Shown: positions 9,909-47,282 of the stretch, piece after piece
Layout of the letters: each line of letters opens with the position of its first letter
How positions within the stretch are numbered: the first letter of the stretch is position 1
NCBI GenBank assembly: GCA_017468395.1
Contig: JAFUIR010000012.1
Span: 1-64,000 of the forward strand
DNA length: 64,000 nucleotides
Origin: Lachnospiraceae bacterium
GTDB lineage: Bacteria > Bacillota > Clostridia > Lachnospirales > Lachnospiraceae
Reading direction: 5' to 3'
The notes under the pieces: generated by a model
The model's database searches: none
Told to the model about the DNA's origin: nothing
The model's input: only the letters and a program-made list of their open reading frames with translations
Translations under genes and position numbers: made by a program

Positions 9909-9923
9909 AGGAGGCGATACCTC

Positions 9924-21885: not shown

Positions 21886-21928
21886 TAACAAATAAACTCA
21901 AGGGAAGTTGAAAAACGAGGAGAATATT

Positions 21929-23101
21929 ATGGTACATAAAAAATATTATGAAGCGTTAGAAAAACAGGAGCAGTTTTTAAGCAAAAAAAATAAAGTGGAC
22001 GAGAAATTCTATAACGGTATTTACGACCGCTATGAAAATCCGGTTTTGACAAGAGAGCATATTCCTCTTACATGGCAGTACGACATTGATGAGGAGACCA
22101 ACCCTTATTTCCAGGAAAGACTTGGAGTTAACGCAGTGTTTAATTCCGGTGCCATTGAACTGAACGGCAAATATTATCTGGTGGCAAGAATTGAAGGAAA
22201 TGACCGTAAATCTTTCTTTGGCGTGGCTGAAAGTGATAACGGTGTAGATGGTTTCCGTTTCTGGGATTATCCTATTTTGCTTCCCGATACTTGCCCGGAA
22301 GAAACAAACGTATATGATATGCGTCTGACAAAACATGAAGACGGTTACATCTATGGAGTGTTCTGCTCCGAGAGCAAAGATACAAAAACAAAGGATTTGT
22401 CCGCAGCAGTTGCGGCAGCAGGCATCGTGAGAACCAAGGACTTAAAGACTTGGGAGAGACTGCCGAATCTGGTAACCAAGAGATCGCCCCAGCAGAGAAA
22501 CGTAGTGCTTCATCCTGAGTTTGTGGATGGTAAATATGCTTTCTACACAAGACCTATGGATGACTTCATTGATACCGGTTCCGGCGGCGGTGTTGGTTTC
22601 GGTCTTTGCGAGGATATTACCAATGCAGTGGTTGACGAGGAGAAAATGACTTCCCTCAGAAAATATCACACCATTACAGAGTGCAAAAACGGTGCAGGTG
22701 CAGTGCCCATCAAAACCGAAAAAGGATGGATTCACATTGCACACGGTGTAAGAAACACTGCGGCAGGCTTAAGATATGTTATTTACGCATTCGCCACAGA
22801 TTTAAAGGATCCTTCCAAAGTGATTGCAGAGCCTTCCGGCATGCTGATTGGTCCCAGAGGATGGGAACGGGTAGGAGACGTGTCTAACGTAGTATTTACC
22901 AACGGTGCAATTGAAGGAAGTGACGGTAAGATTTATATTTATTATGCTTCCAGTGACACCAGATTGCATGTGGCTGTAACAACAAAAGAACAATTAATGG
23001 ATTATGTGTTTAACACCCCTACAGACCCTCTTCGCAGCGTAGATTGCGTAAAACAGAGATGCGAACTGATTAAGAAAAATTTGGAACTGTTGGGAAAATA
23101 A
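21929..23101 (+). CDS. 4-O-beta-D-mannosyl-D-glucose phosphorylase (GH130_1)
   Basis: 390 residues from the ATG at 21929 (GAGGAGAATATT), the same length as Bacteroides fragilis MGP. Five-bladed propeller enzyme of GH130 subfamily 1. The proposed general acid is Asp130 in VYDMRL; phosphate- and sugar-contact motifs such as NVVLHPEFV and GAGAVPI are present. It phosphorolyses mannosyl-glucose to mannose 1-phosphate and glucose in the cytoplasm; no signal peptide. It lies 43 bases after the epimerase, completing the mannobiose salvage pair. Confidence 0.9.
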
Positions 23102-23104
23102 AAT

Positions 23105-24592
23105 ATGAACAAAAGAAAGAAAGCAATCAGTCTGGGGTTGGCTGCGGTTCTTGCCTTTGGAAGTATGGCCTGCGGCGGGGAAGAAAATGCCCCCAAAGAG
23201 CCTTTCGTGCCCCAAATCGTAGGAGCCTACGAGGCGGAAGATGCGGTTCATGCCGGAAATGTAAAAGTGGTTACAAGCGGCAAGACGGGATATTCCGGAA
23301 CAGGTTATGCGGAAGGGTTTATAGACGACGGGACAGACACTTGTACTTTCAAAGTAGAAGTGGCGCAGGAAGGATTTTATGATTTGAATTTTGTCAGTGC
23401 AAGTTCCGGCGGCAACAAAGACAATTTTGTCAGTGTGGACGGTGAGTCGGCAGGAATCATCAGCGTCAGCACAAAGGAATTTTCAGATTCCGTGCTTCAC
23501 AGGATTTATTTACCGGCCGGAGCCCATGATATCACAGTTTCCAAATCTTGGGGCTGGATTCAACTGGACCGTTTGGATATTATAACTTCTGAACCTATCG
23601 ATCCTGCCATTTACGAGGTGACTTGCGAGTTATCCAACGAAAATGCCTCAGAAAATGCCAAAAAAGTTTATGCATATTTGTGTGAGATATACGGCGAAAA
23701 AATCTTGTCCGGTCAGTACTGTGATGATGGTATATACGGAAAAGAGATTCAGGTCATCAAAAAAGTAACGGGCAAAGTGCCTGCGGTCTTAGGTTTGGAT
23801 TTGATGAATTATTCGCCCACCAATGTAAAAAACGGCACAACGGGAAAGTCAATAGAACATGCGAAATTTTATTGGGAAAATGGCGGTATCGTCACTTTCT
23901 GTTGGCACTGGACCGTACCGGAAAAATATTTGACCGGAACCTGGTACAGCAGTTTTTACAAAGAACACACCAATATTAACTTAAGCAAGATTATGAATGG
24001 CGAAGATGCCGAAGGCTATGATTTGCTGATGAAGGATATCGATGCCATTGCAAAAGAATTAAAAGTGTTACAGGAAGCAGATGTTCCGGTGTTGTTCAGA
24101 CCTCTTCACGAAGCCAGCGGCGGTTGGTTCTGGTGGGGAGCATCGGGAGCAGAGGCTTACAAGAAATTATACATAGCCATGTATGACAAACTGACCAATG
24201 AATACGGACTCAATAATTTGATTTGGGTGTGGAACGGTCAGGATGCAGAGTGGTATCCCGGCGACGAATATGTAGACATTATCGGGGAAGACCTTTATCC
24301 CGGCGAAAAAGTGTATTCGTCCCAAGCAGCAAGTTATTTAAATGCGGCAACCAATTATTCCGGTGAAACTAAGTTGGTTTATATGACAGAGAATGGTTGT
24401 GTGTTTGACCCCGAACTTGCAAAGAGAGACGGTGCCATGTGGGGAATGTGGTGCACATGGGTGGGCGAGTTTGTTGCAAAAGATACAACAATTTATGCGC
24501 TCAGTGAAACCTATACGGAAGAGCATATGCTTATAAAGGCATACTCGGACGAAGATGTACTTACTCTGGATGAACTTCCGGATTGGAAATAA
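23105..24592 (+). CDS. Surface beta-mannanase lipoprotein, CBM35-GH26
   Basis: 495 residues. Lipobox GSMAC (Cys23) anchors it outside. Residues about 40-160 form a CBM35-like mannan-binding module (AYEAEDAVHAGN ... WIQLDRLDII). Residues about 175-490 are a GH26 catalytic barrel: acid/base Glu336 in FRPLHEASGGWFWWG and nucleophile Glu429 in YMTENG. It cuts beta-1,4-mannan chains at the cell surface, supplying oligosaccharides to the adjacent importer. It starts three bases after the phosphorylase stop, with no strong ribosome binding site (GGGAAAATAA), hence probably coupled translation. Confidence 0.92.
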   Translation: MNKRKKAISLGLAAVLAFGSMACGGEENAPKEPFVPQIVGAYEAEDAVHAGNVKVVTSGKTGYSGTGYAEGFIDDGTDTCTFKVEVAQEGFYDLNFVSASSGGNKDNFVSVDGESAGIISVSTKEFSDSVLHRIYLPAGAHDITVSKSWGWIQLDRLDIITSEPIDPAIYEVTCELSNENASENAKKVYAYLCEIYGEKILSGQYCDDGIYGKEIQVIKKVTGKVPAVLGLDLMNYSPTNVKNGTTGKSIEHAKFYWENGGIVTFCWHWTVPEKYLTGTWYSSFYKEHTNINLSKIMNGEDAEGYDLLMKDIDAIAKELKVLQEADVPVLFRPLHEASGGWFWWGASGAEAYKKLYIAMYDKLTNEYGLNNLIWVWNGQDAEWYPGDEYVDIIGEDLYPGEKVYSSQAASYLNAATNYSGETKLVYMTENGCVFDPELAKRDGAMWGMWCTWVGEFVAKDTTIYALSETYTEEHMLIKAYSDEDVLTLDELPDWK

Positions 24593-27623: not shown

Positions 27624-28568
27624 ATGGATAACCAGGTTCAAGTATCCGAAGCGGCATTGGCAGTTGCGAAAAAGCAGGCCAGCCTCAGTTATCGGATTAA
27701 AAGAAATAAAGAGTCTTACATCATGCTGGCACCATACTTTATATTGTTTTTCTTCTTCACAGTATTGCCGGTAGTCATGTCCATCTTTTTCAGTTTTACA
27801 TATTACAATATGTTGGAAATGCCTGAATTTATCGGATGGAAAAACTATATTAAATTGTTTTTGGAGGATGATATCTTCCTGAAATCTTTAAAGAACACCA
27901 TGATTTTGGCAGTAATTACCGGACCGGTCAGTTACATGCTCTGTCTGTTGTTCGCATGGATTATCAATGAGTTTAAAGGTTGGCTCAGAGCCTTCCTGAC
28001 ATTGATTTTCTACGCTCCCTCCATCTGTGGTAACGCATATGTGGTGTGGACATTGATTTTGTCCGGTGACCGTTATGGTTATTTAAACGGTTTCCTTATG
28101 GATTGGGGAATTCTGGATGAAGCGATTATCTGGATGAAAACAGAAAAATATGTATTACCTATGTTGATTGTAGTGCAATTGTGGCTCAGCCTTGGTACCG
28201 GCTTCCTTTCCTTTATCGCAGGTTTGCAGACCGTAGATAAGAGTTTGTATGAAGCGGCAGCCCTTGACGGTGTCAAGAACCGTTGGCAGGAACTTTGGTA
28301 TGTAACTCTTCCAGCAATGAAGCCCCAGCTTATGTTCGGTGCGGTAATGCAGATTACACAGTCCTTTGCTATTGCGGATGTATCCATCCAGTTGGCAGGT
28401 AACCCTTCCGTCAACTATTCCGGTGCGACGGTAGTTACCCACCTTTTGGACTACGGTACGGTACGTTTTGAAATGGGTTACGCTTCAGCCATTGCGACAG
28501 TATTGTTCTTACTCATGGTTGGTTCCAACCTGCTTGTACAGAAAGTGTTAAGGAGGGTGGGCGAATAA
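27624..28568 (+). CDS. Carbohydrate ABC transporter permease (MalF type), pair 1
   Basis: 314 residues, GGAGGAGGAAAAC upstream. Six membrane helices; the EAA loop that contacts the ATPase is visible (YEAAALDGVKNRWQELWYVT with LP). It is the first permease of a CUT1 importer and overlaps its partner by one base (TAATG). No ATPase gene is encoded anywhere in the window, so a shared MsmK-type ATPase elsewhere in the genome is likely. Confidence 0.9.
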   Translation: MDNQVQVSEAALAVAKKQASLSYRIKRNKESYIMLAPYFILFFFFTVLPVVMSIFFSFTYYNMLEMPEFIGWKNYIKLFLEDDIFLKSLKNTMILAVITGPVSYMLCLLFAWIINEFKGWLRAFLTLIFYAPSICGNAYVVWTLILSGDRYGYLNGFLMDWGILDEAIIWMKTEKYVLPMLIVVQLWLSLGTGFLSFIAGLQTVDKSLYEAAALDGVKNRWQELWYVTLPAMKPQLMFGAVMQITQSFAIADVSIQLAGNPSVNYSGATVVTHLLDYGTVRFEMGYASAIATVLFLLMVGSNLLVQKVLRRVGE

Positions 28569-29464
28569 TGAAAAAGCAAAATGAAACAATGAAGCCTAAG
28601 AAGCGCCTCTTCAAACGCAGAGCAAAACGTTTGAACCGCTCCATGGCAGGTAACACCCTTTTATTTGTACTGATGGCGATTTGTGGTGTGGCAATGGTTC
28701 TTCCTTTGGTTATGGTTATCAATAACTGCTTGAAACCTTTGGATGAACTGTATCAGTTCCCGCCTAAAATCTTTGTAAGAAACCCTACTCTGGAAAACTT
28801 CACAGATTTGTTCACTTTGATGAATAACTCATGGGTGCCTTTTTCCAGATATATTCTGAACACAATTATTATCACCGGCGGCGGTATGGTTGGCCATGTA
28901 CTTATTGCTTCTATGGCGGCATATCCTTTGGCAAAACACAACTTCCCCGGAAAGAAAATTTTGTTCCAGATGGTTGTACTTTCCATGATGTTCTCCTGGA
29001 CTGTTACACAGACACCTCAGTACATGATTATTTCATGGTTACATATTAACAACACATATTGGGCACTTATTTTGCCGGCTTGTTCCTTTGGTATGGGTCT
29101 GTATCTGATGAAACAGTTTATGGAGCAGTTGCCCGATTCCCTGATGGAATCCGCAAGACTGGACGGTGCAAGCGAGTTTCACATTTTCTGGAAAATTGTA
29201 ATGCCCAACGTAAAACCTGCATGGCTTACACTGGCTATCTTCCAGTTCCAGCAGATGTGGGGTAACACAGGAAGCACCTTCCTGCGTGATGAGCAGTTAA
29301 AGCCTTTGCAGTATTCCCTGCAACAGATTGCAGCCGGTGGTGCTGCCAGAGCCGGTGCGGCTGCTGCGGTAACCTTTATTATCGCTGCAGTGCCTATTAC
29401 ATTCTTCCTGATTTGTCAGAAGAACGTATTAGAGACAATGACTTCATCAGGTATGAAAGATTAA
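28568..29464 (+). CDS. Carbohydrate ABC transporter permease (MalG type), pair 1
   Basis: 298 residues with a strongly basic N-terminus and six membrane helices. The EAA loop reads MESARLDGASEFHIFWKIVM. Together with the preceding gene it forms the membrane channel for the 999-residue binding protein. The stop is 15 bases before the NHL protein gene (AAGGAGGAGGG), so the operon continues. Confidence 0.9.
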   Translation: MKKQNETMKPKKRLFKRRAKRLNRSMAGNTLLFVLMAICGVAMVLPLVMVINNCLKPLDELYQFPPKIFVRNPTLENFTDLFTLMNNSWVPFSRYILNTIIITGGGMVGHVLIASMAAYPLAKHNFPGKKILFQMVVLSMMFSWTVTQTPQYMIISWLHINNTYWALILPACSFGMGLYLMKQFMEQLPDSLMESARLDGASEFHIFWKIVMPNVKPAWLTLAIFQFQQMWGNTGSTFLRDEQLKPLQYSLQQIAAGGAARAGAAAAVTFIIAAVPITFFLICQKNVLETMTSSGMKD

Positions 29465-33987: not shown

Positions 33988-34908
33988 ATGAAAAAAAGAA
34001 AAAAATTAACTCTTCTCCAGAAACGTATGTTGACAGGATATTTGTTTATCCTTCCATGGTTTATCGGATTTGCGATTTTTTACATCAGATCCTTGATTAT
34101 GACCGGACAGTTTGCATTTTCAAATTTAACGATTATTCCTACCGGTGGATATACACTGGATTTTATCGGATTTGATAATTTTAATTATGCATTCAGGGTA
34201 CATGGTTCCTTTAAACAGACCTTGACAACATCAATCATGAACATGCTGGTAGACGTACCTTTGATTACTTTCTTCAGTTTGTTTATGGCGATGCTTCTGA
34301 ACAAGAAGTTCCCCGGAAGATTTGTTTTCAGGGCAATCTTCTTCCTGCCGGTTATTATGGGCTCCAGTGCCATTACTTCCGCCATGGAAATGTCCGAGGC
34401 TATGATGTCCGGCGGTATTTCCAGTATGTCAACGGAAATGGCAACAGATGCCAGCGCAGGCGCAATGATGAACATGGATTATTTCATTGACATGTTTATG
34501 AACCTGGGTATTCCGGTCAAACTTTTGGACTATGTTACAGCGGCGGTTGCCCGAATCAATGATATTATTGAGGCTTCCGGTGTACAGATTATTATCTTTA
34601 TTGCGGCACTTCAGTCCATCCCCGGTTCCATGTATGAAGTTGCAAAAATTGAAGGTGCTACAGGTTATGAAACTTTCTGGAAAGTAACTTTCCCCATGGT
34701 AATGCCTCATATCATTACCAACGTGGTATATACCATTGTAGATAACTTCGCAGAAAGTGAAGTTGTTGAGCTGGCATACAAGGTTGCATTTACAGAAATG
34801 AATTACGGTCTCAGTTCCGTATTCAGTTTGGTTAGTACCCTAATCACCTGTTTGATTCTGGTGGTAATATGCGGATATATTTCCAAGCATACATTCTACT
34901 ATAACTAA
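33988..34908 (+). CDS. Carbohydrate ABC transporter permease (MalF type), pair 2
   Basis: 306 residues starting immediately after the DUF5696 stop; TTGGAGGGGATTTAA lies upstream. Six helices with a Met/Ser-rich insertion in the large periplasmic loop (about residues 130-165). The EAA loop reads YEVAKIEGATGYETFWKVTF. It forms a second importer channel with the next gene. Confidence 0.88.
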   Translation: MKKRKKLTLLQKRMLTGYLFILPWFIGFAIFYIRSLIMTGQFAFSNLTIIPTGGYTLDFIGFDNFNYAFRVHGSFKQTLTTSIMNMLVDVPLITFFSLFMAMLLNKKFPGRFVFRAIFFLPVIMGSSAITSAMEMSEAMMSGGISSMSTEMATDASAGAMMNMDYFIDMFMNLGIPVKLLDYVTAAVARINDIIEASGVQIIIFIAALQSIPGSMYEVAKIEGATGYETFWKVTFPMVMPHIITNVVYTIVDNFAESEVVELAYKVAFTEMNYGLSSVFSLVSTLITCLILVVICGYISKHTFYYN

Positions 34909-34925
34909 GGGGAGGAGGAAGAAAG

Positions 34926-35897
34926 ATGACAGAATATATTGCTCGTTTTAAGAAAATCATGAACGATCCGGACCAGAGAAAAAGCATCATGACAGATGTG
35001 AAAAATTTTCTGATTAAAGTGTTCGGTATGTTGATTTTGATTGGTGTCAGCTATGTAATCCTCTCACCGATTATAGGTATGATTGTAAACTCCATATCCT
35101 CTGACAAGGATGCTTACAACCCCATGGTGTACATCCTGCCGCAGTATCCGACTTTGGAAAGATATACGCTGGCTATTGAGAGATTAGAGTATTTTACTAC
35201 CATCGGAAAAAATCTGCTTTATGTAATCACTTTAATGTTGTTACAGATTTTTATCTGTTCCATGGTTGGTTACGGATTTGCAAGATTCAATTTCCCCTTA
35301 AAGAAGCTGTTGTTTGGTTGTGTGGTTGTAATGATTGTTATCCCTTCCCACACCATCATGCTTCCCCTTTATATGACCTTTAAGCAGTTCGATTTATTTG
35401 GAATTGCGACTGCTCTGACAGGGTCTCCCGGACTTATGGGAACTACCATTCCCATGTATATACTGACAGTGTTGGGAACAGGTGTCAGGTCGGGACTTTA
35501 CATTTACATTTTCAACCAGTTTTTCCGCGGCCTGCCCAAAGAAATTGAGGAGGCAGCACTGGTGGACGGAGCAGGTGTATGGTATACTTACTTTAGGATT
35601 ATGCTTGTAAACGCAATGCCTTCCGTCATTACTGTCGCAGTGTTCTCTATGGTGTGGCAGTTCAATGATACTTTTTACGCAAAGTTATTTCTGATCAGCG
35701 AAGAAGTAGTGATCAGTAAGAAGATAGAATCTCTGGCAACGGTTCTTGCAACCATCGACAAAATCCTGAACGTAACAATTCAGGAACTGTATGTGGATGC
35801 GGGTGTCATTCTGGTGGTTCTGCCGATTCTGATTGTTTACCTCTGGCTGCAGAAATACTTTATAGAGGGTGTGGAGAGAAGCGGTATCGTAGGTTAA
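34926..35897 (+). CDS. Carbohydrate ABC transporter permease (MalG type), pair 2
   Basis: 323 residues, GGGGAGGAGGAAG upstream. Six membrane helices with an EAA loop IEEAALVDGAGVWYTYFRIM. It pairs with the preceding permease; the likely binding protein is encoded two genes downstream (37870). The N-terminal cytoplasmic extension (about 35 residues) is longer than in the pair 1 partner. Confidence 0.88.
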   Translation: MTEYIARFKKIMNDPDQRKSIMTDVKNFLIKVFGMLILIGVSYVILSPIIGMIVNSISSDKDAYNPMVYILPQYPTLERYTLAIERLEYFTTIGKNLLYVITLMLLQIFICSMVGYGFARFNFPLKKLLFGCVVVMIVIPSHTIMLPLYMTFKQFDLFGIATALTGSPGLMGTTIPMYILTVLGTGVRSGLYIYIFNQFFRGLPKEIEEAALVDGAGVWYTYFRIMLVNAMPSVITVAVFSMVWQFNDTFYAKLFLISEEVVISKKIESLATVLATIDKILNVTIQELYVDAGVILVVLPILIVYLWLQKYFIEGVERSGIVG

Positions 35898-35956
35898 AGC
35901 CTATCTCACCCATAAAAGTGAATCAACTTTCAAAACAAAAAAGGAGGATGAAAAAG

Positions 35957-37837
35957 TTGAAAAGCAAAAAATTATTAGCATGTCTCCTTGCAGGCGCTAT
36001 GGTTCTTTCTATGGCAGCATGCGGAGGCGAAGGACAGGAATCAAATGGTACTGATGTGCAGACACAGCAGCAGACCGAAACAACTCCGGCAACAACACCG
36101 GAACCTGTAGTTGAAGAAGTTAGTATTGACTTTGAAGACGGCAACATGAGTTTTGTATCTTTGTACACCAAAGCTGCAAACGCTGATGCTTCTGAGTTGG
36201 CAGTCGTTGATTACAACGGCGGCAAAGCTCTGCAGGTTAAAAATGTGAACGGTAAAGTTCCTTATGTAGCATTTGATATTGCAAACCTTTTGGGCAGCAA
36301 TATTGCAAACGTTGCAAGTGTTGAAATGACTATCGCTACAGAGTACAGCACAGGTAAATTCAGTGCTTCTGAAGGTAGCATCCTTTCTTGGACAGGTGCA
36401 GACCAGAAAGAGTGTAAAGATGGCTGGTCAGTTTATCTTGCATCCAAGAACCCCAACAAAGCAATCGCAAAAGTTGGCGAAGGCGAAAACTTTGTAGCAG
36501 ATGCAGGTAACCTCATCATGGTTACAATGGATAAAGATAACGGTGTGGAAGAAGGAAACGGCAATGCTACCATGTACATTGACAACATTCGTTTCCTGGA
36601 TGCTTCCGGCAACGTTATGAAAGCAGATACTTCTGTAGCATTTGTTGCTCCCGAAGGATTTGAAGTAACAGGTAGAGACCTCAACCTTTGCTATGTAGAA
36701 AACGAAGTAGCATTGGAAGGATTTACAGCAAAAGCAGACGGCTGGGCGCAGGGCGGTATCGACCTGACAGATGAGCAGAGAGCACTTATCAAACCCGGAA
36801 CTGTTCTTACAGTTCAGTACAAGTCTGATGCACCTGTATGGTTTGTGGCAATCGGCGAAAACCCTCTGGGCGGATGGCTCCGTGCAGTTGATCAGAGCAC
36901 ATTCAAATCCCATGGATTTGTTGCTTCTGACAACAGTACCGTACAGTACACATATGAGCAACTTGCACAGTACTGGGGTGAAGGTTTCGAACAGTATCTG
37001 ACAACACTTCAGTGTGAATCTTCCGCAGCGTGGGAAGTATACAGCGTAACTGTAGGTAAGAAGAGCACATATGAACCTATGAGTTCCAATGCAACAGTAT
37101 TGGAAGGATTTACAGCAAAAGCAGACGGCTGGGCGCAGGGCGGTATCGATCTGACAGACGAGCAGAGAGCACTTATCAAACCCGGTTGTGTACTTGAGGT
37201 TGCTTACAAATCTGACGCACCTGTATGGTTTGTAGCAATCGGTGAAAACCCTCTGGGCGGATGGCTCCGTGCAGTTGACCAGAGCACATTCATCACACAT
37301 GGCGGTGTAAACGCAGAAGACGGTAAAGTACAGTATACTTATGAGCAGCTTGCACAGTACTGGGGCGATGGCTTCGAACAGTATCTGACAACACTTCAGT
37401 GTGAATCTTCCGCAGCGTGGGAAGTATACAGCGTAACTGTAGGTACAACATTTAAACCTATGGCTAACACAGTTGCACTGGAAGGATTTACAGCAAAAGC
37501 AGACGGCTGGGCACAGGGCGGTATCGATCTGACAGACGAGCAGAGAGCACTTATCAAACCCGGTTGCGTACTTACAGTTGATTACAAATCTGATGCTCCC
37601 GTATGGTTTGTAGCAATTGGCGAAAACCCTCTGGGCGGATGGCTTCGTGCAGTTGACCAGAGCACATTCATTACACACGGTGCAGTAAACTCTGATGCAG
37701 GTAAAGTACAGTACACATATGAGCAGCTTGCACAGTACTGGGGCGAAGGTTTCGAACAGTATCTGACAACACTGCAGTGTGAATCTTCTGCAGCATGGGA
37801 AGTATACGGCGTAACAGTTGGACAGACAGCACAATAA
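35957..37837 (+). CDS. Surface lipoprotein with an N-terminal beta domain and three near-identical modules
   Basis: About 626 residues. GGAGG touches the ATG at 35948, leaving no spacing, so the TTG at 35957 (nine bases away) is the likelier start. Lipobox SMAAC. Residues about 55-215 form a carbohydrate-binding-like beta sandwich (IDFEDGNMSFVSLY ...). Then three copies of a 115-residue module follow (bases 36713, 37100, 37478), each with EGFTAKADGWAQGGIDLTDE, VWFVAIGENPLGGWLRAVDQ and CESSAAWEVY. Aromatic-rich and with no catalytic motif, the modules look like an unassigned carbohydrate-binding family. Placed between importer and binding protein genes, it likely holds mannan at the surface. 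Confidence 0.75.
   Translation: MKSKKLLACLLAGAMVLSMAACGGEGQESNGTDVQTQQQTETTPATTPEPVVEEVSIDFEDGNMSFVSLYTKAANADASELAVVDYNGGKALQVKNVNGKVPYVAFDIANLLGSNIANVASVEMTIATEYSTGKFSASEGSILSWTGADQKECKDGWSVYLASKNPNKAIAKVGEGENFVADAGNLIMVTMDKDNGVEEGNGNATMYIDNIRFLDASGNVMKADTSVAFVAPEGFEVTGRDLNLCYVENEVALEGFTAKADGWAQGGIDLTDEQRALIKPGTVLTVQYKSDAPVWFVAIGENPLGGWLRAVDQSTFKSHGFVASDNSTVQYTYEQLAQYWGEGFEQYLTTLQCESSAAWEVYSVTVGKKSTYEPMSSNATVLEGFTAKADGWAQGGIDLTDEQRALIKPGCVLEVAYKSDAPVWFVAIGENPLGGWLRAVDQSTFITHGGVNAEDGKVQYTYEQLAQYWGDGFEQYLTTLQCESSAAWEVYSVTVGTTFKPMANTVALEGFTAKADGWAQGGIDLTDEQRALIKPGCVLTVDYKSDAPVWFVAIGENPLGGWLRAVDQSTFITHGAVNSDAGKVQYTYEQLAQYWGEGFEQYLTTLQCESSAAWEVYGVTVGQTAQ
36713..37822 (+). repeat. Three 345-bp coding repeats
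   Basis: Units at 36713-37057, 37100-37444 and 37478-37822, all exactly 345 bases, separated by 42- and 33-base linkers. Long stretches are identical at nucleotide level, for example around GCAGACGGCTGGGC and the ACAACACT..CAGTGTGAATCTTC block. Confidence 0.9.
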
Positions 37838-37869
37838 AGTATTTGATTTCAAACGGAGGAAAACAAACA

Positions 37870-39354
37870 ATGAAAAATATCAAGAAGTTAGTAGCACTTG
37901 GTCTTGCTGCAGTACTGACACTTGGCGTAGTAGCATGCGGTGGCGGCGAAGGCGATAATCAGCAAGGCGGCAATGGCGGCGGTGCAGCTGCCGGTGGAAA
38001 CACTGCTAAAAATGAAGAAATCATTATCGGTTCCTGGTGGGTACAGTACTATGACAGTACACATACCAGCGTAGAAGATGACCCTTCTTATGTAACATCT
38101 GTTGAAGCAGAAGGCGATACTGAAGACCAGAAAAAGCAGAAAGCAATTAACCGTCAGGTTGCTGACATGAAATTTGCTAACGTTGACAAAATTGAGCAGG
38201 CTTATGATGTAGAATTCTACTGGAGCAACCTGACATACACAGGTGTTTCAGAATCTATCACAACATCTATCATGGCTGGTACACCTGACTGTGATATCTA
38301 CCTTGTAGACGCAGGTATGGCTATTCCCGCACAGATGAACGGTCTTGCACTTGACCTTAAGACAGTTCTTCCTGCAGATAACGATTTGTTCACAACACAG
38401 TCTAACATTGCATACCTTGATCTGGGTGATGGAAAAGCTTGTATTCTTTCCAGACAGGAAGCTCAGAAACAGGTTGAAGCTACATATCCTCTCGGATTCA
38501 ACATGCAGATGCTTGAAGAAAACAAACTGGAAGACCCCAGAGTACTCTATGAGCGTGGCGAATGGACATGGGACAAATTCAACGAGTACTGCCAGAAACT
38601 TACACAGGATACAGACGGTGACGGTCAGATCGACCAGTACGGTTACTGTGGTTATGAATACGAAACATTTGAACAGCTTATGATGAGTAACGGTGCAAGC
38701 ATCGCTCTTGGTACAACTGAAACTCTGACAAGTGCAGCTACAGGTCAGGCTATCCAGCAGATGTACGATATGTACAACACATGGAAAGTATGCTATCCTT
38801 ACGATTTTGAAGATCCTTCCAACAGCATGAGAAACCAGTATACACAGGGTAACATCGCTTTCTTCCCTATCGCAGCTTGGATTGCATCCGGTAACGGTGA
38901 CTATGACTACGATGGCGCTCTTGGTTATACACTTCCTTTCGATACAGCATATGTTCGTTGGCCGGTTGGTCCTTCCGGTAACAAGGATACTAACCCCGGT
39001 AAAAACAACGTAAGTGGTGAGTTCTATATCATTCCTGCAGGTGTTGCAGAACCTGAAAAGGTTTACAACGTTCTGTATGATATGTGGAACTGGTACGATG
39101 GTGATACATCCATCCGTGATAACAGAGACGTTATGCACTGGTGGTTTGGTGTAACTGCAAGCAAACAGGAACTGAGAGATGCAAACTTCGAAGTTATGGC
39201 TGATTGTGGTGCACACACAACACTTGACCTTTGGAACAGTATGGGCGTTGCTTATGATCTCCAGTCCATCATTAAGGGTGAAGCTACAGCAGCTCAGTTC
39301 CAGGAGACATACAAACAGCAGGTTCAGGATGCACTTGATGCATACTTCAACTAA
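37870..39354 (+). CDS. Extracellular solute-binding lipoprotein (family 1)
   Basis: 494 residues from the ATG at 37870 (ACGGAGGAAAACAAACA). Lipobox VVAC (Cys near 23) followed by a Gly-rich linker. The mature part is a two-lobed family 1 binding protein, with GSWWVQYYD at the start and WTWDKFNEYCQKLTQDTDGD in the middle (a common calcium-loop-like stretch). It is of normal length, unlike the 999-residue protein. It probably serves the second permease pair for mannooligosaccharides. It is followed by the LacI regulator after 51 bases with no clear terminator. Confidence 0.88.
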   Translation: MKNIKKLVALGLAAVLTLGVVACGGGEGDNQQGGNGGGAAAGGNTAKNEEIIIGSWWVQYYDSTHTSVEDDPSYVTSVEAEGDTEDQKKQKAINRQVADMKFANVDKIEQAYDVEFYWSNLTYTGVSESITTSIMAGTPDCDIYLVDAGMAIPAQMNGLALDLKTVLPADNDLFTTQSNIAYLDLGDGKACILSRQEAQKQVEATYPLGFNMQMLEENKLEDPRVLYERGEWTWDKFNEYCQKLTQDTDGDGQIDQYGYCGYEYETFEQLMMSNGASIALGTTETLTSAATGQAIQQMYDMYNTWKVCYPYDFEDPSNSMRNQYTQGNIAFFPIAAWIASGNGDYDYDGALGYTLPFDTAYVRWPVGPSGNKDTNPGKNNVSGEFYIIPAGVAEPEKVYNVLYDMWNWYDGDTSIRDNRDVMHWWFGVTASKQELRDANFEVMADCGAHTTLDLWNSMGVAYDLQSIIKGEATAAQFQETYKQQVQDALDAYFN

Positions 39355-39405: not shown

Positions 39406-40416
39406 ATGGCTAAAGATGTAACAATGCAGGATATCGCAAGAGAACTTGGTATCAGCACGGTTTCCGTTTCTAAAGCGTTGACGGATAAAGATGGTGTCAG
39501 CAGTGAAATGCGGGCAACCATTAAGCAGAAAGCGCAGGAAATGGGCTATAGATATAGTGTGACCAAGAGCGGTAAAGAAGGCAGAAATTATAATATCGGC
39601 ATTCTTGTAGAAGAGCATTTCATCGGAGACCAGACCTCTGCCTTCTACTTCAAAATGTATCAGAGTATTATAATGAAATTGCCCAAGAACAATTACTCCG
39701 GAATTTTAGAGATTCTTACTACCGACAAAATCCGAAGCGGAGTCCTTCCGAAGATTATTTCAGATAAAAAAGTGGATGGAATTATCGCTTTGGGTAAAAT
39801 CGAAAGCAGATATCTTAGAAAACTCCGTGAGACGGGAATTCCTATTGTGTATCTTGATTATTATGATAAACATATGGAAGTTCCGTCGGTTACTACCGAC
39901 AATGTATATGGCACATATATGCTTATGAATCATGTGGTCAGAATGGGACACAAGAAAATCGCCTTTGTAGGTGATATTGATGCGACTCCCAGTATTTTGG
40001 ACAGATATTTGGGCTATATGAGAGGTCTCATAGTAAATGAACTCTCTGCACCGAAAGATTATCTGATTTGTGACCGTGATGAAGAAGGCAATTACCTGGA
40101 TATGGATTTGCCGGCAGATATGCCTACAGCATTTATCTGCAACTGTGACCATGTGGCATTGTTCCTGATTGAAAAGTTAAAGAAGATGGGATATCGTGTC
40201 CCGGAAGATGTTTCTGTTGTAGGATTTGATAACAGCCCCTTTGCGGAGTTTTCGGATCCGAAACTTACAACCGTGGAGGTTGATGTGGATAGTATGACAG
40301 AGACTGCCTGTGACCTTTTAATCAGCATGATTCGCGGTGAAAAAGATATTCACGGACGTAAGGTCATTAGCGGCAAATTAATTATCAGAGACTCTGTAAA
40401 AAAATTAGCACAATAA
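39406..40416 (+). CDS. LacI-family transcriptional regulator
   Basis: 336 residues. The helix-turn-helix is at residues 6-26 (VTMQDIARELGISTVSVSKAL) with the hinge helix after it; the periplasmic-binding-protein-like core follows (YNIGILVEEHF ... VVGFDNSPFAEFSDPKLTTV). It probably represses the downstream glycosidase genes, or the whole locus, in the absence of a mannan-derived sugar. Together with the AraC protein this gives the locus two local regulators. No operator could be assigned by eye. Confidence 0.9.
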   Translation: MAKDVTMQDIARELGISTVSVSKALTDKDGVSSEMRATIKQKAQEMGYRYSVTKSGKEGRNYNIGILVEEHFIGDQTSAFYFKMYQSIIMKLPKNNYSGILEILTTDKIRSGVLPKIISDKKVDGIIALGKIESRYLRKLRETGIPIVYLDYYDKHMEVPSVTTDNVYGTYMLMNHVVRMGHKKIAFVGDIDATPSILDRYLGYMRGLIVNELSAPKDYLICDRDEEGNYLDMDLPADMPTAFICNCDHVALFLIEKLKKMGYRVPEDVSVVGFDNSPFAEFSDPKLTTVEVDVDSMTETACDLLISMIRGEKDIHGRKVISGKLIIRDSVKKLAQ

Positions 40417-40436: not shown

Positions 40437-41459
40437 ATGAGTGAGATCAAGATGATTGCGCCTGCAGTTCCCAATGTTCCCTGGCAGGAAAAGCCTGAAG
40501 GACTTAAAGGGGCTCCCGTATGGCGCTATTCAGAGAATCCCATTATCGGCAGAAACCCTATTGAAGGTGTAGCAAGAATCTTCAACAGTGCAGTTATGCC
40601 TTATAACGGTGAATTTATCGGTGTATTCAGAGGAGAGCAGACAAATGGTGTTCCTTACATTTATTTGGGACACAGTAAAGACGCTATCCACTGGGAATTT
40701 GAGCCTGAGAAAATCCAGTTTGTGGATGAAGAAGGCAACCCCGCTATGCCCGTATATGCATATGACCCCCGTTTGGTTAAAGTAGAAGACGACTACTATA
40801 TTATCTGGTGTCAGGACTTCTACGGTGCATCTATCGGTTTGGCTAAAACAAGAGATTTCAAGACTTTTGTTAGATTGGAGAGTCCGTTCATTCCTTTCAA
40901 CAGAAATGCAGTTTTGTTCCCCAGAAAGATTAACGGTAAGTACATGATGCTCAGCCGTCCTTCTGATTCCGGTCATACACCTTTCGGTGATATTTTTGTC
41001 AGCGAAAGTCCCGACATGGTATATTGGGGCAAACACAGACATGTAATGGGTAGAGGATACGAATGGTGGGAGTCACTGAAAATCGGTGGCGGTGCAGCAC
41101 CTATCGAAACAAGCGAAGGCTGGCTTATGTTCTATCACGGCGTAAGCGGTACTTGCAACGGTTATGTATACTCTATCGGTGGAGCAATTTTGGATCTGGA
41201 GAATCCTTCCAAAGTGCTTTACAGATGTGAAAACTTCCTGCTTACTCCCGAAGAGTGGTACGAGGAGAGAGGCTTCGTTCCCAACGTATGCTTCCCTTGC
41301 GCAACCATTCACGATCCGGAGAGCGGAAAAATCGCTATTTACTACGGTGCGGCTGACAGTTATGTGGGTCTTGCATTCTGTAAATTTGATGAAATCGTTG
41401 CCTATATTAAAGAGCACAGTCATGTGACTGAGACAGATACTGAAATAGGCAAAAGATAA
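40437..41459 (+). CDS. Beta-1,4-mannooligosaccharide phosphorylase (GH130_2)
   Basis: 340 residues, no signal peptide. GH130 propeller with probable general acid Asp110 in YAYDPRLV, plus GRNPIEGVARIFNSAV, FPRKINGKYMMLSRPS and IGGGAAPI. It resembles subfamily 2 enzymes such as RaMP2, which release mannose 1-phosphate from the non-reducing end of mannooligosaccharides. It complements the GH130_1 enzyme that handles only the final disaccharide. It lies 20 bases after the LacI gene. Confidence 0.88.
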   Translation: MSEIKMIAPAVPNVPWQEKPEGLKGAPVWRYSENPIIGRNPIEGVARIFNSAVMPYNGEFIGVFRGEQTNGVPYIYLGHSKDAIHWEFEPEKIQFVDEEGNPAMPVYAYDPRLVKVEDDYYIIWCQDFYGASIGLAKTRDFKTFVRLESPFIPFNRNAVLFPRKINGKYMMLSRPSDSGHTPFGDIFVSESPDMVYWGKHRHVMGRGYEWWESLKIGGGAAPIETSEGWLMFYHGVSGTCNGYVYSIGGAILDLENPSKVLYRCENFLLTPEEWYEERGFVPNVCFPCATIHDPESGKIAIYYGAADSYVGLAFCKFDEIVAYIKEHSHVTETDTEIGKR

Positions 41460-41500
41460 GAAGTGTCTTTCGGGATAAACAGTATCCTATGGAGGAAAGT

Positions 41501-42718
41501 ATGAAAAGAGCAGGCAGATATTTGGCAATTATCACATTGTTCGCAATGCTTTTATGCGGGTGTGGTACAGATATGCCTGCTCCTTCTGTATCTGTGGATG
41601 AAACGGACACGCAGATACAAAAGGGGCAGACAATGGCAAGTGAAAATGAGGAGGATACAGATATGGAACAGAAACATCCAATGGCGGATATTACAGCCGC
41701 AGATGTGGTCAGCGAAATGAAAATCGGTTGGAGTTTGGGAAATACTTTGGATTCCACAAACACTTCTTTTATAAAAACAATGCAGCCATCGGCTTGGGAA
41801 ACCTGTTGGGGGAATCCCGTTACCACAAAAGAACTTATCAAAACAGTCACGGACAGAGGGTTTAATGTTATCCGTATTCCTGTTTCATGGGGAGACCATC
41901 TGCTTGTGTCCGAGGATTATAAAATTGTGGACAGTTGGATGGACAGAGTGCAGGAAGTGGTGGATTACGCCTATGAAGAGGACGTTTATGTAATCTTAAA
42001 CATCCACCATGAAGAATGGCATATGCCCTACTATGACAATCAGGAGCAGGCCGCTGAAATTTTAGAAAAAGTGTGGACGCAGATTGCCGAGAGATTTAAA
42101 GATTATGACGAACGCCTGATTTTTGAGGGAATGAATGAGCCCCGTAAAAAAGGCACACCGGTGGAATGGAACGGTGGGGACAAGGAAGGCTGGGAGGTTG
42201 TAAATTATTTAAACGGCGTGTTTATTGATACAATCAGAAACAGTGACGGAAATAACCCTTACCGTATTTTGATGATTCCGGGCTATGCGGCGAACTGCTG
42301 GGAGGGCATTAAGCATCTGGAAGTTCCGGCGGATGATAATAAACTTATTGTGTCCGTACATGCCTATGAGCCCTACAACTTTGCGCTTAATATTAAAGGT
42401 ACCAGTGAGTGGAATAAGGACACATGGAACATTGATGCCATTATGAAATCTTTAGATAAACTGTTTATTTCTAAAGGGATTCCGGTAGTTATCGGCGAAT
42501 TTGGTGCAATGCACAAAGATTCCGAAACTAATTTGGAAGAGCGCGGCGCATGGGCAGAATATTATGTGCGCAGTGCAAAAAAATTGGGCATTCCCTGCTG
42601 CTGGTGGGATAACGGAGCCTTTGAAGGTGACGGAGAACTGTTTGGTCTTATTGACAGAAAAACTTATGAATGGAAATATGAGGCAGTGGTAGAAGGCCTC
42701 TTTAAAGGATTGGAATAA
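41501..42718 (+). CDS. GH5 endoglycanase lipoprotein
   Basis: 405 residues from the ATG at 41501 (GGAGG five bases upstream). Lipobox LLCGC (Cys21), then an acidic linker to about residue 60. The GH5 barrel follows (IGWSLGNTLDS, IRIPVSWGDH, NIHHEEW). Acid/base Glu213 in FEGMNEPR and nucleophile Glu333 in VIGEFGAMH are intact. The SLGNTLD start is typical of subfamily 4, which covers endoglucanase, xyloglucanase and glucomannanase activities. With GH26 it probably opens glucomannan at the surface. Confidence 0.88.
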   Translation: MKRAGRYLAIITLFAMLLCGCGTDMPAPSVSVDETDTQIQKGQTMASENEEDTDMEQKHPMADITAADVVSEMKIGWSLGNTLDSTNTSFIKTMQPSAWETCWGNPVTTKELIKTVTDRGFNVIRIPVSWGDHLLVSEDYKIVDSWMDRVQEVVDYAYEEDVYVILNIHHEEWHMPYYDNQEQAAEILEKVWTQIAERFKDYDERLIFEGMNEPRKKGTPVEWNGGDKEGWEVVNYLNGVFIDTIRNSDGNNPYRILMIPGYAANCWEGIKHLEVPADDNKLIVSVHAYEPYNFALNIKGTSEWNKDTWNIDAIMKSLDKLFISKGIPVVIGEFGAMHKDSETNLEERGAWAEYYVRSAKKLGIPCCWWDNGAFEGDGELFGLIDRKTYEWKYEAVVEGLFKGLE

Positions 42719-42740: not shown

Positions 42741-43886
42741 ATGAAATATAACATCAATTATGAAGAAGGAATGGCATATAACGGCGACTGGCGCAAAATG
42801 CGGGCAGCTATGCTGAAAGCAAGAGAAGGAAAACCGGTTACGGTTGGATTTTTGGGTGGCTCCATTACTCAGGGCTCCCTGTCTTCCACACCGGAAACCT
42901 GTTATGCTTATTTGGTTTACGAATGGTGGAAAAAGACATTTCCAAACAGTGAAATCACCTATGTTAATGCAGGTATCGGAGGAACCCCTTCCCATTTCGG
43001 CGTGGCCAGAGTGGAAGAGGACTTGCTTGCATATGAGCCGGATTTTACCACTGTGGAATTTAGCGTAAACGATGAAAATACACCTTTTTACAGAGAGACG
43101 TATGAAGGACTTATCCGCAAAATCTTAAAGACATCTCCGAAAACAGCAGTGCTTATCATACATAATGTATTTTATGAAAGCGGAACCAATGCCCAGGACC
43201 AGCATGAACTGGTAGGCAGACGTTATGGTGTGCCCTGTGTCAGTATGAAGACTTCCGTGTACCGTAAAGTGGCAGACGGTACTTTGCCTGTAAGAGACAT
43301 TACACCGGACGACCTTCATCCCAATGATGAGGGACATAGTCTGCTGGCGGGTCTGGTAACTTACTTCCTGGACAAAGTATATGCGACTTTGGATATACCA
43401 CAGGAGCAGATTATTAATCCTGAGATTATCGAACAATTTCCGGAAGGAGAGTTACCTGCACCCATTACAGCAAACGGTTACGAAAATTCTTACCGTTACC
43501 GCAATCACAGATGTGAGCCCCTGCTTCAGGGATTTGTGGCAGATACAGAGCCCCAGAATCACATTACGGAAATTTTCCGTAAAGGCTGGTATGCAGACAA
43601 GGAAGGGGCTTCTATTACCTTTGAAGTTCCCGGAAGCAGTTTGTCCGTGCAGTACCGTAAGTCTGTGAAACATCCCGCCTGTGTAGCCCGTGCGGTTGTA
43701 GACGGGGATGAAGAAAACGCCATTATTTTGGATGGCAATTTCGATGAGACATGGGGAGATTGCCTGTATTTGCATTCCTTGCTCCACCATGGAGAGGACA
43801 AAGTACATACTATAAAAGTCACAGTGACCAAGGGAGAACCCGGCAAGGATGTTCCCTTCTATCTCGTGGCAGTAATCGGTTCATAA
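42741..43886 (+). CDS. SGNH-type acetyl esterase, CE17-like
   Basis: 381 residues, no signal peptide, so cytoplasmic. The SGNH hydrolase core occupies residues 30-215: nucleophile Ser41 in FLGGSITQG, Gly in NAGIGGT, Asn in FSVND, and the Asp190/His193 pair in PDDLHPNDEGH. The C-terminal 150 residues form a beta domain (EGASITFEVPGSSLSVQYRK) like the module attached to the Roseburia mannan acetylesterase of family CE17. It would remove acetyl groups from imported mannooligosaccharides before phosphorolysis. It lies 22 bases after GH5. Confidence 0.8.
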   Translation: MKYNINYEEGMAYNGDWRKMRAAMLKAREGKPVTVGFLGGSITQGSLSSTPETCYAYLVYEWWKKTFPNSEITYVNAGIGGTPSHFGVARVEEDLLAYEPDFTTVEFSVNDENTPFYRETYEGLIRKILKTSPKTAVLIIHNVFYESGTNAQDQHELVGRRYGVPCVSMKTSVYRKVADGTLPVRDITPDDLHPNDEGHSLLAGLVTYFLDKVYATLDIPQEQIINPEIIEQFPEGELPAPITANGYENSYRYRNHRCEPLLQGFVADTEPQNHITEIFRKGWYADKEGASITFEVPGSSLSVQYRKSVKHPACVARAVVDGDEENAIILDGNFDETWGDCLYLHSLLHHGEDKVHTIKVTVTKGEPGKDVPFYLVAVIGS

Positions 43887-43899
43887 TAGGAGGTTAACT

Positions 43900-46230
43900 A
43901 TGTTTCGTGATGATTTTGTTTGGGGCGTTGCAGCCAGTGCGTATCAGATAGAGGGACGCATGGAAGGCGATGGAGCCGGAAAGATGATATGGGATACTTT
44001 TGCGGAGCAGGGCCGTATTGCGGACGGCTATACGGCAGATGAAAGTTGTGCCCATTTAAAGCATTATAAAGAAGACTATGCCCTGATGAAGAACCTTGGA
44101 ATCAAGGCTTACCGCTTCAGCATCAGTTGGGCGAGACTGATGCCGGAAGGTACAGGCGCAGTCAATGAAAAAGCAGTGGCTCTTTACAGAGATATGATTG
44201 CAGAAATGAAAAAGAACGGAATCACTCCTTATCTGACCATGTATCACTGGGAACTTCCCCAGGCGTTGCAGGATAAAGGCGGCTGGCTTAATCCGCAGAT
44301 TGTAGAGTGGTTTGGAGAATATGCAAAAGTGGTGGCAGAAAATTTCTCTGACATTTGTGAATACATCATTACTTTAAATGAGCCCCAGTGTTTTGTAGGC
44401 TTGGGACATTTGTCCGGCGTGCAGGCTCCGGGACTGAAATTGACTTTGCTGGAAACTTTCCAGGTTGCCCATAATGCGCTGAAGGCCCATGGACAGGCGG
44501 TAATTAACCTGCGCAAATATGCGAAGGCTGATATTAAAGTGGGTTATGCACCTACTTGCGGCGTGGCCTATCCTGCCACCGACAGCCCGGAGGATATTGA
44601 AGCTGCAAGGGAATACTATTTTACCCAGAATAATCCTATGGATAACTGGACATGGAATGTGGCGTGGTTTTCTGACCCGGTATTCCTTGGACATTATCCC
44701 GAAGACGGATTGAAAAAATATGCCCAGTGGCTTCCCGAAATTACCAAGGAAGATATGGAACTGATTTCCCAGCCTTTGGATTTTATGGGGCAGAATATTT
44801 ATAACGGTTATATGATTCGTAAGGGCGCAGACGGCAAGGGTGAATACGTTGCCAGACCGCTGGGAGCAGACAAGGCTGCTACAAACTGGCCGGTAACACC
44901 GGAGTGTTTGTATTGGGGCATTAAGTTCCTTTACGAACGTTATGGTTTGCCCATTTATATTACTGAAAATGGCATGTCCTGCCATGACAGTGTGGCAACA
45001 GATGGCAGAGTACATGACGCTGACCGTATCAATTTTTTGGATAAATATTTAAGCGCATTGCAGAAAGCGGCAGATGAAGGGGCCGATGTAAGAGGCTATT
45101 TCCTGTGGACATTCCTTGACAATTTTGAGTGGGAAAAAGGTTACACAGAAAGATTCGGTATCGTACATGTGGATTTTGCAACACAGCGCAGAAGAGTGAA
45201 AGATTCTGCATATTGGTATAAAAAAGTGATGGAAAGTAACGGTAAAATCTTGTCCATTAATCAGCCAAGCAAACAGATTATGTTTTTGGAACCTTTGTTT
45301 AAGCAGATGATTTGGGGCGGTAACAAACTCCGTACAGAGTGGAATTATGATATTCCCGGCGATGATACCGGCGAATGCTGGGCGGTCAGTGCACATCCAA
45401 ACGGAGACTGTAAAGTGGCAGAAGGTCCTTATGCGGGCAAAACCTTGTCACAGTTGTGGACAGAAGTGCCCACGCTTTTTGACAATGTGGATGAAAAGGG
45501 AAATTTGAAAGAAGAAAAATTCCCGTTGTTAATTAAAATTATTGATGCCAAAGCAGATTTGTCCATTCAGGTGCATCCTGATGATGCTTATGCAAAAGTA
45601 CATGAAAACGGTTCTTTTGGTAAGACGGAGTGCTGGTATATTCTGGATTGCCCGAAGGATGCCACTTTGGTTATCGGACATAAAGCAAAAAGTCCCGAAG
45701 AGATGGAAGAAATGGTCCGCGGCGGCAGATGGAAGGAATTTTTGCAGGAAGTACCTGTAAAGAAAGGGGATTTCATTCAGATTGACCCCGGTACACTGCA
45801 TGCCATCAAAGGTGGAATTATGCTTCTGGAGACACAGCAAAACAGCGATATTACTTATAGAGTGTACGATTATGACCGTCTCAGTGACGGTAAGCCCAGA
45901 CCGCTTCACGTAGAGCAAAGTCTGGCAGTAACCAAGGCTCCCGCAACTCCTGTGGAAGAGTGCATTTTCCATGTGACAGACGGCGCCGTAAACGAAATGC
46001 AGATTTTGATGGAAAATCAGTATTATCAGGTAAGCCGTATGCAGGTAAGCGGTGAGGCAAAATGGATGCAGGAAGAAGGTTTCCGCATTGTTACGGTACT
46101 GGATGGATATGGTCTTGTAAACGCAACAGCAGTGAAAAAGGGACAGCACTTTATTTTGCCCGCAGGTTTCGGCGAAGTGACCGTAGAAGGAGAAATGACT
46201 CTCTTTATGTCCACCAAAGGAAATAAGTAG
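43900..46230 (+). CDS. Fusion: GH1 beta-glycosidase + mannose-6-phosphate isomerase
   Basis: 776 residues in one uninterrupted frame. Residues 1-453 are a complete GH1 enzyme: FVWGVAASAYQIEG, acid/base Glu161 in TLNEP, nucleophile Glu356 in ITENG, and FLWTFLDNFEWEKGY. Residues about 459-776 are a full-length class I mannose-6-phosphate isomerase like Bacillus ManA (about 315 residues): FKQMIWGG, GECWAVSAHP, and zinc ligands Gln557 and His559 (SIQVHP), Glu577 (GKTECW) and His634 (GTLHAI). The linker is only a few residues. The first half would remove beta-linked glucose (or mannose) from imported glucomannan pieces; the second converts mannose 6-phosphate to fructose 6-phosphate. Both sets of catalytic residues are intact. 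No signal peptide. Confidence 0.92.
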   Translation: MFRDDFVWGVAASAYQIEGRMEGDGAGKMIWDTFAEQGRIADGYTADESCAHLKHYKEDYALMKNLGIKAYRFSISWARLMPEGTGAVNEKAVALYRDMIAEMKKNGITPYLTMYHWELPQALQDKGGWLNPQIVEWFGEYAKVVAENFSDICEYIITLNEPQCFVGLGHLSGVQAPGLKLTLLETFQVAHNALKAHGQAVINLRKYAKADIKVGYAPTCGVAYPATDSPEDIEAAREYYFTQNNPMDNWTWNVAWFSDPVFLGHYPEDGLKKYAQWLPEITKEDMELISQPLDFMGQNIYNGYMIRKGADGKGEYVARPLGADKAATNWPVTPECLYWGIKFLYERYGLPIYITENGMSCHDSVATDGRVHDADRINFLDKYLSALQKAADEGADVRGYFLWTFLDNFEWEKGYTERFGIVHVDFATQRRRVKDSAYWYKKVMESNGKILSINQPSKQIMFLEPLFKQMIWGGNKLRTEWNYDIPGDDTGECWAVSAHPNGDCKVAEGPYAGKTLSQLWTEVPTLFDNVDEKGNLKEEKFPLLIKIIDAKADLSIQVHPDDAYAKVHENGSFGKTECWYILDCPKDATLVIGHKAKSPEEMEEMVRGGRWKEFLQEVPVKKGDFIQIDPGTLHAIKGGIMLLETQQNSDITYRVYDYDRLSDGKPRPLHVEQSLAVTKAPATPVEECIFHVTDGAVNEMQILMENQYYQVSRMQVSGEAKWMQEEGFRIVTVLDGYGLVNATAVKKGQHFILPAGFGEVTVEGEMTLFMSTKGNK

Positions 46231-46262: not shown

Positions 46263-47282
46263 ATGATTACAATTAGTCTGTGCATGATTGTAAAAAATGA
46301 AGAAAAGGTGCTTGCGAGGTGTCTGGACAGCATCTGCGATTTGATGGATGAAATCATTATCGTGGATACCGGTTCTACAGACAGAACCAAGGAAATTGCG
46401 GCAAAGTATACAGATAAAATCTATGATTTTGTCTGGATTAACGATTTTGCTGCGGCCAGAAATTTTGCTTTTTCCAAAGCCACCAAGGAATACATTTACT
46501 CTGCGGATGCAGATGAAGTGGTAAATTTGGAAAATCATGAGCGTTTCCGGATTTTAAAGGAAAATCTGGTTCCGGAAATTGAGATTGTGCAAATGAAGTA
46601 TGGCAATCAGTTAGCACATAATACGGTTTACAATTTTGATGAAGAGTACAGACCCAAACTGTTTAAGAGACTGCGGGAGTTTGTGTGGGAAGAGCCCATC
46701 CATGAGACGGTGCGCACCCAGCCTGTGGTTTTTGACAGTGACATAGTGATTACCCATTTGCCGGAAAATCTGCACGCCGGCCGTGACCTTGCGGCTTTTG
46801 GCAGAATGTGGGAAAGACGGCAACCTATTTCGGCAAGACTTCATGAAATGTATGCCAAGGAACTTTTTATCGCCGGAACACCGGAGAATTTTGCAGATGC
46901 GGAAGAATTTTTTGAAACCTCGGTTTGCGACGTGAACCGAAGTGGGGATGAAGTATTGCAAGCCTGTCTGGTGGTGGCAAGGGCTGCCAGGTATGCAGGG
47001 GATGAGGGAAAGTTTTTTAAACACATTATGAAGGTTGTGGCAGGCGGGGAATGCTCGGAAGCCTGTTTTGAATTGGGCGAGTATTATTTTGCAAAGAAAG
47101 ATTATGATGAGGCTGTTATCTGGTTTTATAATGCAAAGTTTGAAACTTCCCCTATTTTAAATATCCGTTTAGGCGGTGAGAGGGCACTGGAACGCTTGGC
47201 AGAGTGTTATGATTGTCTTGGGGATGAGGCTCAGGCACTTTTGTACCGCCGTATGATTGAAGATGGCAGGGAGGCAAACTGA
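46263..47282 (+). CDS. Family 2 glycosyltransferase with TPR-like C-terminus
   Basis: 339 residues. GT-A fold with ISLCMIVKNEEKVLARCLDS at the start, IIVDTGSTDRTKEIA, and the metal-binding motif YSADADEV. The C-terminal 130 residues are helical TPR-like repeats (ACFELGEYYFAKKDYDEAVI). Proteins of this form are common in Firmicutes and glycosylate proteins or surface glycans. It is 32 bases after the GH1 fusion with no terminator between, so it may be the last gene of that operon, though no link to mannan use is evident. It could act on the repeat-rich surface protein encoded next (inference). Confidence 0.82.
   Translation: MITISLCMIVKNEEKVLARCLDSICDLMDEIIIVDTGSTDRTKEIAAKYTDKIYDFVWINDFAAARNFAFSKATKEYIYSADADEVVNLENHERFRILKENLVPEIEIVQMKYGNQLAHNTVYNFDEEYRPKLFKRLREFVWEEPIHETVRTQPVVFDSDIVITHLPENLHAGRDLAAFGRMWERRQPISARLHEMYAKELFIAGTPENFADAEEFFETSVCDVNRSGDEVLQACLVVARAARYAGDEGKFFKHIMKVVAGGECSEACFELGEYYFAKKDYDEAVIWFYNAKFETSPILNIRLGGERALERLAECYDCLGDEAQALLYRRMIEDGREAN

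Follow-up and report, generated by a model that had tools for sequence, protein, structure and literature searches.

A GH1 glycosidase joined to a mannose-6-phosphate isomerase in a mannan locus: a conserved, already described fusion whose glycosidase half was probably cut too short in the published work

What is one to make of a single open reading frame that begins as a glycosidase and ends as the isomerase of mannose metabolism? Is it one gene or two genes run together by mistake, has it been seen before, do both halves work, and what might be gained by joining them? These questions are raised by a gene at 43900..46230 of what we call the window, that is, the whole 64,000-nucleotide stretch of Lachnospiraceae bacterium DNA that was analyzed (assembly GCA_017468395.1, contig JAFUIR010000012.1). 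In short, the observation is confirmed as real and conserved, it had already been described, and the literature gains one useful correction from it.

The gene lies on the forward strand, as do the features below whose coordinates are written with two dots, unless marked otherwise, and it encodes 776 amino acids from an ATG start in one frame (ORF list, Pfam and NCBIfam); inspection of its first residues by eye reveals no apparent signal peptide. Residues 2-448 (43903..45243) form a GH1 domain of the beta-glucosidase type by Pfam and NCBIfam: Glyco_hydro_1 (PF00232) matches exactly this stretch at E 3.5e-138 over profile positions 5-452/453, and the TIGR03356 BGL model is passed at 496.2 bits against a cut-off of 478.5, making this a full-length catalytic domain of family GH1 above the curated threshold. 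After a junction of only 13 residues between the Pfam boundaries (449-461, 45244..45282) comes a class I mannose-6-phosphate isomerase (ManA) domain, residues 462-771 (45283..46212; Pfam, NCBIfam and structural alignment), within which PMI_typeI_cat occupies residues 462-567 and MPI_cupin_dom residues 703-771. PF01238, the C-terminal ManA model, matches neither the fusion nor anything else in the window's own genome, and TIGR00218 was therefore taken as the ManA probe; the fusion scores 199.8 bits with it (cut-off 116.2), and because the match covers profile positions 3-358/359 the isomerase is complete and belongs to class I. The preliminary description had read the frame as these two domains with an intact isomerase, and on both points it was right.

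Both parts have solved relatives. Residues 6-317 of the isomerase part can be aligned with PDB 1QWR (E 8.9e-90), which we take to be the ManA of Bacillus subtilis and which, unlike the window's, stands alone; the GH1 part aligns over fusion residues 2-451 with the beta-glucosidase Ks5A7 (PDB 9L0Q, E 2.2e-163), an unfused chain, 460 residues long, whose end falls near the start of the fusion's junction.

Could the join be an artifact of assembly or sequencing, with two neighboring genes merged by, say, a missing stop near base 45262, as the preliminary description had allowed? What speaks for such errors at this place is the draft of R. intestinalis, which erred in the opposite direction: it had the protein as two gene models, and the authors corrected ambiguities in the sequence that separated them (PMC6385246, in the passages available). 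The search across genomes for the two-domain architecture nonetheless reduces this explanation to a practically nil chance, because independent genomes carry the single frame. Full-length single-frame matches were obtained from 22 of the 138 genus genomes and from 17 of 397 sampled genomes of the family, spanning 16 genera (threshold E 1e-130), the window's genome being included in each count; that is, 21 other genomes of the genus and 16 others of the family have it, and one of the 17 family genomes is a single contig. The class sample of 391 genomes yielded full-length matches in four, all of the same family (threshold E 1e-150); outside the family this sample held no full-length fusion, and 10 outside genomes matched over GH1 only. 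The named collection returned 31 loci, 19 of them full-length, including those of Candidatus Acetatifactor stercoripullorum and a Butyrivibrio.

The junction itself argues in the same direction: of 58 distinct fused ORFs, 50 have the WGG of ManA exactly 41 residues from the KDSxxWY of GH1. Two records of a single gene have it at 42, L166, L164 and L169 at 38, 39 and 40 respectively, and three ORFs give no value because their first motif differs; the 58 include L116, a cut duplicate of L021 that the trees leave out. A TAG noted in G103 falls beyond the end of its 767-aa ORF. Several apparent fusions or variants were set aside along the way: G371 (a 2-772 match with three stops) proved to be two adjoining genes, GH1 and ManA-ROK, and was not counted; G176, with its halves on two contigs, was left out of the counts; and L057 and L059, which had looked like GDSL-ManA and GH1-cupin, proved to be GH1-ManA genes that break off where their contigs stop.

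Has anybody seen this protein before? The preliminary description knew of no described GH1-ManA fusion, and here it was wrong: two published proteins predate it, so that a fusion new to science is rejected. La Rosa and colleagues reported in 2019 (PMC6385246) RiGH1 of R. intestinalis L1-82 (ROSINTL182_05469/70), predicted to be bifunctional, which like the window's protein combines an N-terminal GH1 with a C-terminal phosphomannose isomerase in a single chain whose numbering runs to residue 768, and which sits, by the paper's available passages, in mannan loci with GH130s, an epimerase, esterases, an ABC transporter, a LacI regulator and a phosphomutase. A 2022 paper (PMC9784577) describes RhGH1-M6P of Roseburia hominis A2-183, with the same architecture in a manno-oligosaccharide locus; it too was predicted to be bifunctional and, in the part of that paper available, remains a prediction outside the targets chosen for expression and purification. 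For a different R. intestinalis strain, a GH1 is likewise listed in the locus for gluco- and galactomannan (PMC5320581, in part).

The 2019 authors divided RiGH1 into D1 (aa 1-246) and D2 (aa 247-768) and found that D2 interconverts mannose 6-phosphate and fructose 6-phosphate, while D1 was inactive on every substrate tried, a result whose significance they termed unclear (PMC6385246, available passages). One might conclude that the GH1 half is dead as an enzyme and serves as a scaffold, stabilizing or assembling the isomerase, with ManA alone at work, and the inactive D1 is precisely what recommends that conclusion. Yet the cut at 246/247 stands against a GH1 domain that runs to about residue 449 in the window's protein: a piece ending at 246 of some 450 residues lacks the nucleophile and almost half the domain. 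With aa 1-246 ending after the first catalytic glutamate and before the second, the reported inactivity is probably due to truncation, a judgment made from sequence and from the domain limits as stated in the accessible part of PMC6385246. The claim is thus reopened, the apparent loss of glucosidase function being very probably a matter of where the protein was cut. A literature search for a later test of the GH1 half, with subscription papers outside its reach, brought up only PMC6385246, PMC9784577 and PMC7478625.

The residues themselves make the dead scaffold quite improbable. E161, E356, Q557, H559, E577 and H634, the catalytic and metal residues that the preliminary description had named, are present here and invariant in 20 of 20 aligned fusions; we take E161 (NEP motif) to be the acid/base and E356 (TENG motif) the nucleophile of GH1, and Q557, H559, E577 and H634 to be the metal ligands of ManA. 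Both glutamates of the one active site and the Gln, His, Glu and His ligands of the other are therefore all in place. Among 56 fused GH1 sequences the nucleophile is found in every one, at 355-357 in a numbering that begins with the GH1 stretch and hence beyond the published piece, and so is the acid/base (54 by motif at 160-162, 2 read directly); both glutamates are kept as well in 12 GH1 proteins of the same clade that have no ManA catalytic part. On the isomerase side, none of 55 fused ManA sequences departs from the two metal-site motifs around Q557/H559 and E577, and the third His is kept in all 55 (53 by motif, 2 read directly). Values of dN/dS run from 0.019 to 0.122 for the GH1 part and from 0.021 to 0.137 for the ManA part (each defined in 16 of 17 pairs, with dS saturated in some), that is, as low for GH1 as for ManA, which disfavors a dead GH1 domain. 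Two of the 56 fusions (L168:8747-11071 and L170:8270-10624) have Asp in place of the conserved Asn before the acid/base Glu (TIDEP), and in the same two the ManA motif PGTxHA reads PGCVHA.

What does the company of the gene suggest about its work? Directly upstream lies a GDSL/SGNH esterase, by context an acetyl-mannan esterase (42741..43886, Pfam), and before it, again by Pfam, a GH5 enzyme (41489..42718), a GH130 mannoside phosphorylase (40437..41459), a LacI-type regulator (39406..40416) and an ABC solute-binding protein (37795..39354). Just before the last of these, at 35918-37837, is a protein with three CBM65 modules. Farther up are two pairs of ABC permease genes (33988..35897, that is, 33988-34908 and 34926-35897; and 27624..29464, that is, 27624-28568 and 28568-29464), a GH26 enzyme of the mannanase family with a CBM35 (23105..24592), a second GH130, by context of the mannosylglucose phosphorylase type (21908..23101), a GlcNAc_2-epim family epimerase that context suggests is a mannobiose epimerase (20710..21885), and an AraC-type regulator on the reverse strand (19573..20418). 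The GH130s, GH26, GH5, epimerase and esterase bear out the mannan locus proposed beforehand, and since GH1 precedes ManA in a single frame and the mannan locus around them contains GH130 genes, the protein belongs by architecture and setting with the mannan enzymes of the RiGH1 kind.

On the left this island is bounded by a polysaccharide deacetylase (17107..17949) and on the right by a family 2 glycosyltransferase (46263..47282). In the genome G025 a relative of the first directly precedes, and a relative of the second follows, a bare manA (75% identical), with further neighbors as in the window, and so the window has, and G025 lacks, a mannan island of about 27 kb to which GH1 belongs. The G025 copy stands beside the window's in the ManA tree (SH-aLRT 93), a placement that favors the island's having been lost in G025.

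Across 34 fusion loci, a subset picked for long flanks (89 to 11398 bases), a GH130 is found in 22 and a GDSL relative in 30, within 9.5 kb or the stretch available; over that stretch 12 are without a GH130 and 2 without any of the six markers. Only "any GH130" was counted, because GH130a and GH130b cross-match. A GH130 also lies within 2.5 kb of stand-alone ManA in 18 of 43 chosen loci, and so the fusion is not what brings ManA into such a locus.

We think it likely, with a probability of roughly 70%, that the protein is a cytoplasmic enzyme with two activities that ties the isomerase to the beta-mannan locus, and that its GH1 side arose once and has since been partly undone several times. 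The N-terminal GH1 would be an intact retaining exo-beta-glycosidase acting in the cytoplasm, most probably a beta-glucosidase that trims glucose from imported gluco-manno-oligosaccharides. The GH130 phosphorylases would release mannose 1-phosphate, which a mutase would convert to mannose 6-phosphate, the substrate of ManA; mannose phosphorylated by a kinase would be its other source. The C-terminal ManA would then make fructose 6-phosphate from it, as its R. intestinalis homologue does (PMC6385246, in part). Counted against this reading are the inactive N-terminal piece of that same 2019 paper, a ManA tree in which fused and free copies are mixed, a second ManA in 5 of 39 fusion genomes, the 12 of 34 loci without a GH130, and the Asn-to-Asp change in 2 of 56 fusions.

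An alternative makes a beta-mannosidase of the GH1 part: mannose would be its product, and both halves would serve one mannose stream by way of a hexokinase, a loose metabolic bridge. The mannan setting fits this, and a figure legend in PMC13278490, seen in isolation, counts GH1 among the beta-mannosidase families; against it, the GH1 part passes the beta-glucosidase equivalog TIGR03356, and the solved structures nearest to it carry beta-glucosidase names. We regard the mannosidase as unlikely.

Returning to the two-activity enzyme, why should its halves be joined? Direct channeling seems improbable as the purpose and was set aside, because the product of GH1 would not be a substrate of ManA and the two reactions would share no intermediate. 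Shared expression and a shared ratio, or stability, are for that reason the likelier benefits: through the fusion, what is usually the genome's sole class I ManA would become part of the locus, held to the glycosidase in a constant 1:1 ratio. The fusion may coordinate both ends of the pathway, as had been suggested. Were the intact GH1 domain active, this could close a gap in the picture of dietary mannan digestion by gut Firmicutes.

In 34 of 39 fusion genomes, some of them incomplete (61-100%), TIGR00218 finds no class I ManA above the cut-off other than the fused one, and the exceptions with a second are G150, G268, G534, G245 and G226; weak fragments below the cut-off occur in four (G214, G268, G104 and G390), of which G268 also has the second ManA. 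The window's genome, 92.7% complete, was checked for another manA, and no class I ManA was found besides the fused one, which speaks against the idea, also raised beforehand, of an isomerase needed only when the locus is induced. Elsewhere than in the mannan locus this genome has a ManC-like protein of 443 aa, with a cupin like that of type II isomerases, which falls below the TIGR01479 cut-off (196.4 versus 372.95 bits); we take a piece beside its gene to resemble GDP-fucose synthase.

How did the fusion get its start? In a quick GH1 tree (82 rows, midpoint root) all 56 fused rows fall in a clade of 68 (SH-aLRT 92) together with 12 rows that lack the ManA catalytic part: 5 with a cupin-like end, 2 GH1-CE2 and 5 plain GH1 (L040, L041, L068, L069 and L070). 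The tree favors one origin of the fusion, most likely by the joining of neighboring genes, followed by repeated loss of the ManA catalytic part and one swap for an acetyl-esterase. Five genes have lost the catalytic part and kept the cupin-like end (L039:1471-3090, L042:1501-3138, L065:8001-9827, L071:8001-9596 and L172:7510-9258), an end that scores above the Pfam cut-off in L065 and L172, scores below it in L039 and L042, and is seen in L071 by alignment only. Because residues like the first ones of ManA remain before the gap, L065 and L039 are decayed fusions and not precursors; the left-over cupin possibly has a structural role. In two other genes (L062:8001-10421 and L063:8001-10415) the GH1 is 79% identical to the window's, and a CE2 acetyl-esterase takes ManA's place near the same junction. 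A separate class I ManA is found in 11 of the 12 genomes of these unfused rows, the twelfth, G086 (90% complete), yielding none.

The isomerase tells a less tidy story. A quick ManA tree of 98 rows mixes fused and stand-alone copies, with 10 changes of the GH1-ManA label, 7 of them forced by starred branches (L057 is mislabeled there, and the "GDSL-ManA 2 rows" of that tree are one real row), so that repeated separation, replacement of ManA or more than one joining may lie behind the pattern. The three deepest fused rows (L164, L166 and L169) are also those with the shorter junctions of 38-40 residues. Across 55 fused proteins the distances in the GH1 part and those in the ManA part are correlated at r 0.79, a value that none of 999 permutations reached, though common ancestry of the genomes would by itself produce some correlation.

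ManA has other partners. A GDSL esterase-ManA fusion of 682 aa (L014:1504-3552) has a locus with GH130 and GH5 relatives (L127); ManA-ROK fusions, in which ROK is probably a sugar kinase, occur at L115:2556-4454, L131:1918-3816, L185:1300-3219 and L174:6193-8046, the last adjoining a GH1 gene; and a biosynthetic counterpart joins a ManC-like mannose-1-phosphate guanylyltransferase to ManA (L182:2442-4772, L183:1030-3378 and L184:1595-3943). G476 carries both a GH1-cupin remnant (L172) and one of the ManC-ManA fusions (L182). A bolder reading, which we offer tentatively and at less than even odds, takes all of this together: the GH1 half would work and its published inactivity would be an artifact of truncation, class I ManA would move among partners for breakdown (GH1, GDSL esterase, ROK kinase) and for building (ManC), each fusion would commit a reversible isomerase to one direction, and the left-over cupin would be structural for GH1. 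The loss and swapping of the isomerase half amount in any case to a natural series on why a core metabolic enzyme fuses to the enzymes of a pathway.

Some smaller observations belong beside these. At L164:13043-15271 a protein of 742 aa joins a GH130 phosphorylase to a CE2 esterase. To the right of the mannan island, at 47450-49621, the window encodes a 723-aa protein without a Pfam match, with many repeats bearing Cys and His motifs, whose counterparts in two related genomes are 32-38% identical where the neighbors are about 70%. At 8745-13173 three genes of the phage-integrase (tyrosine recombinase) family stand in a row.
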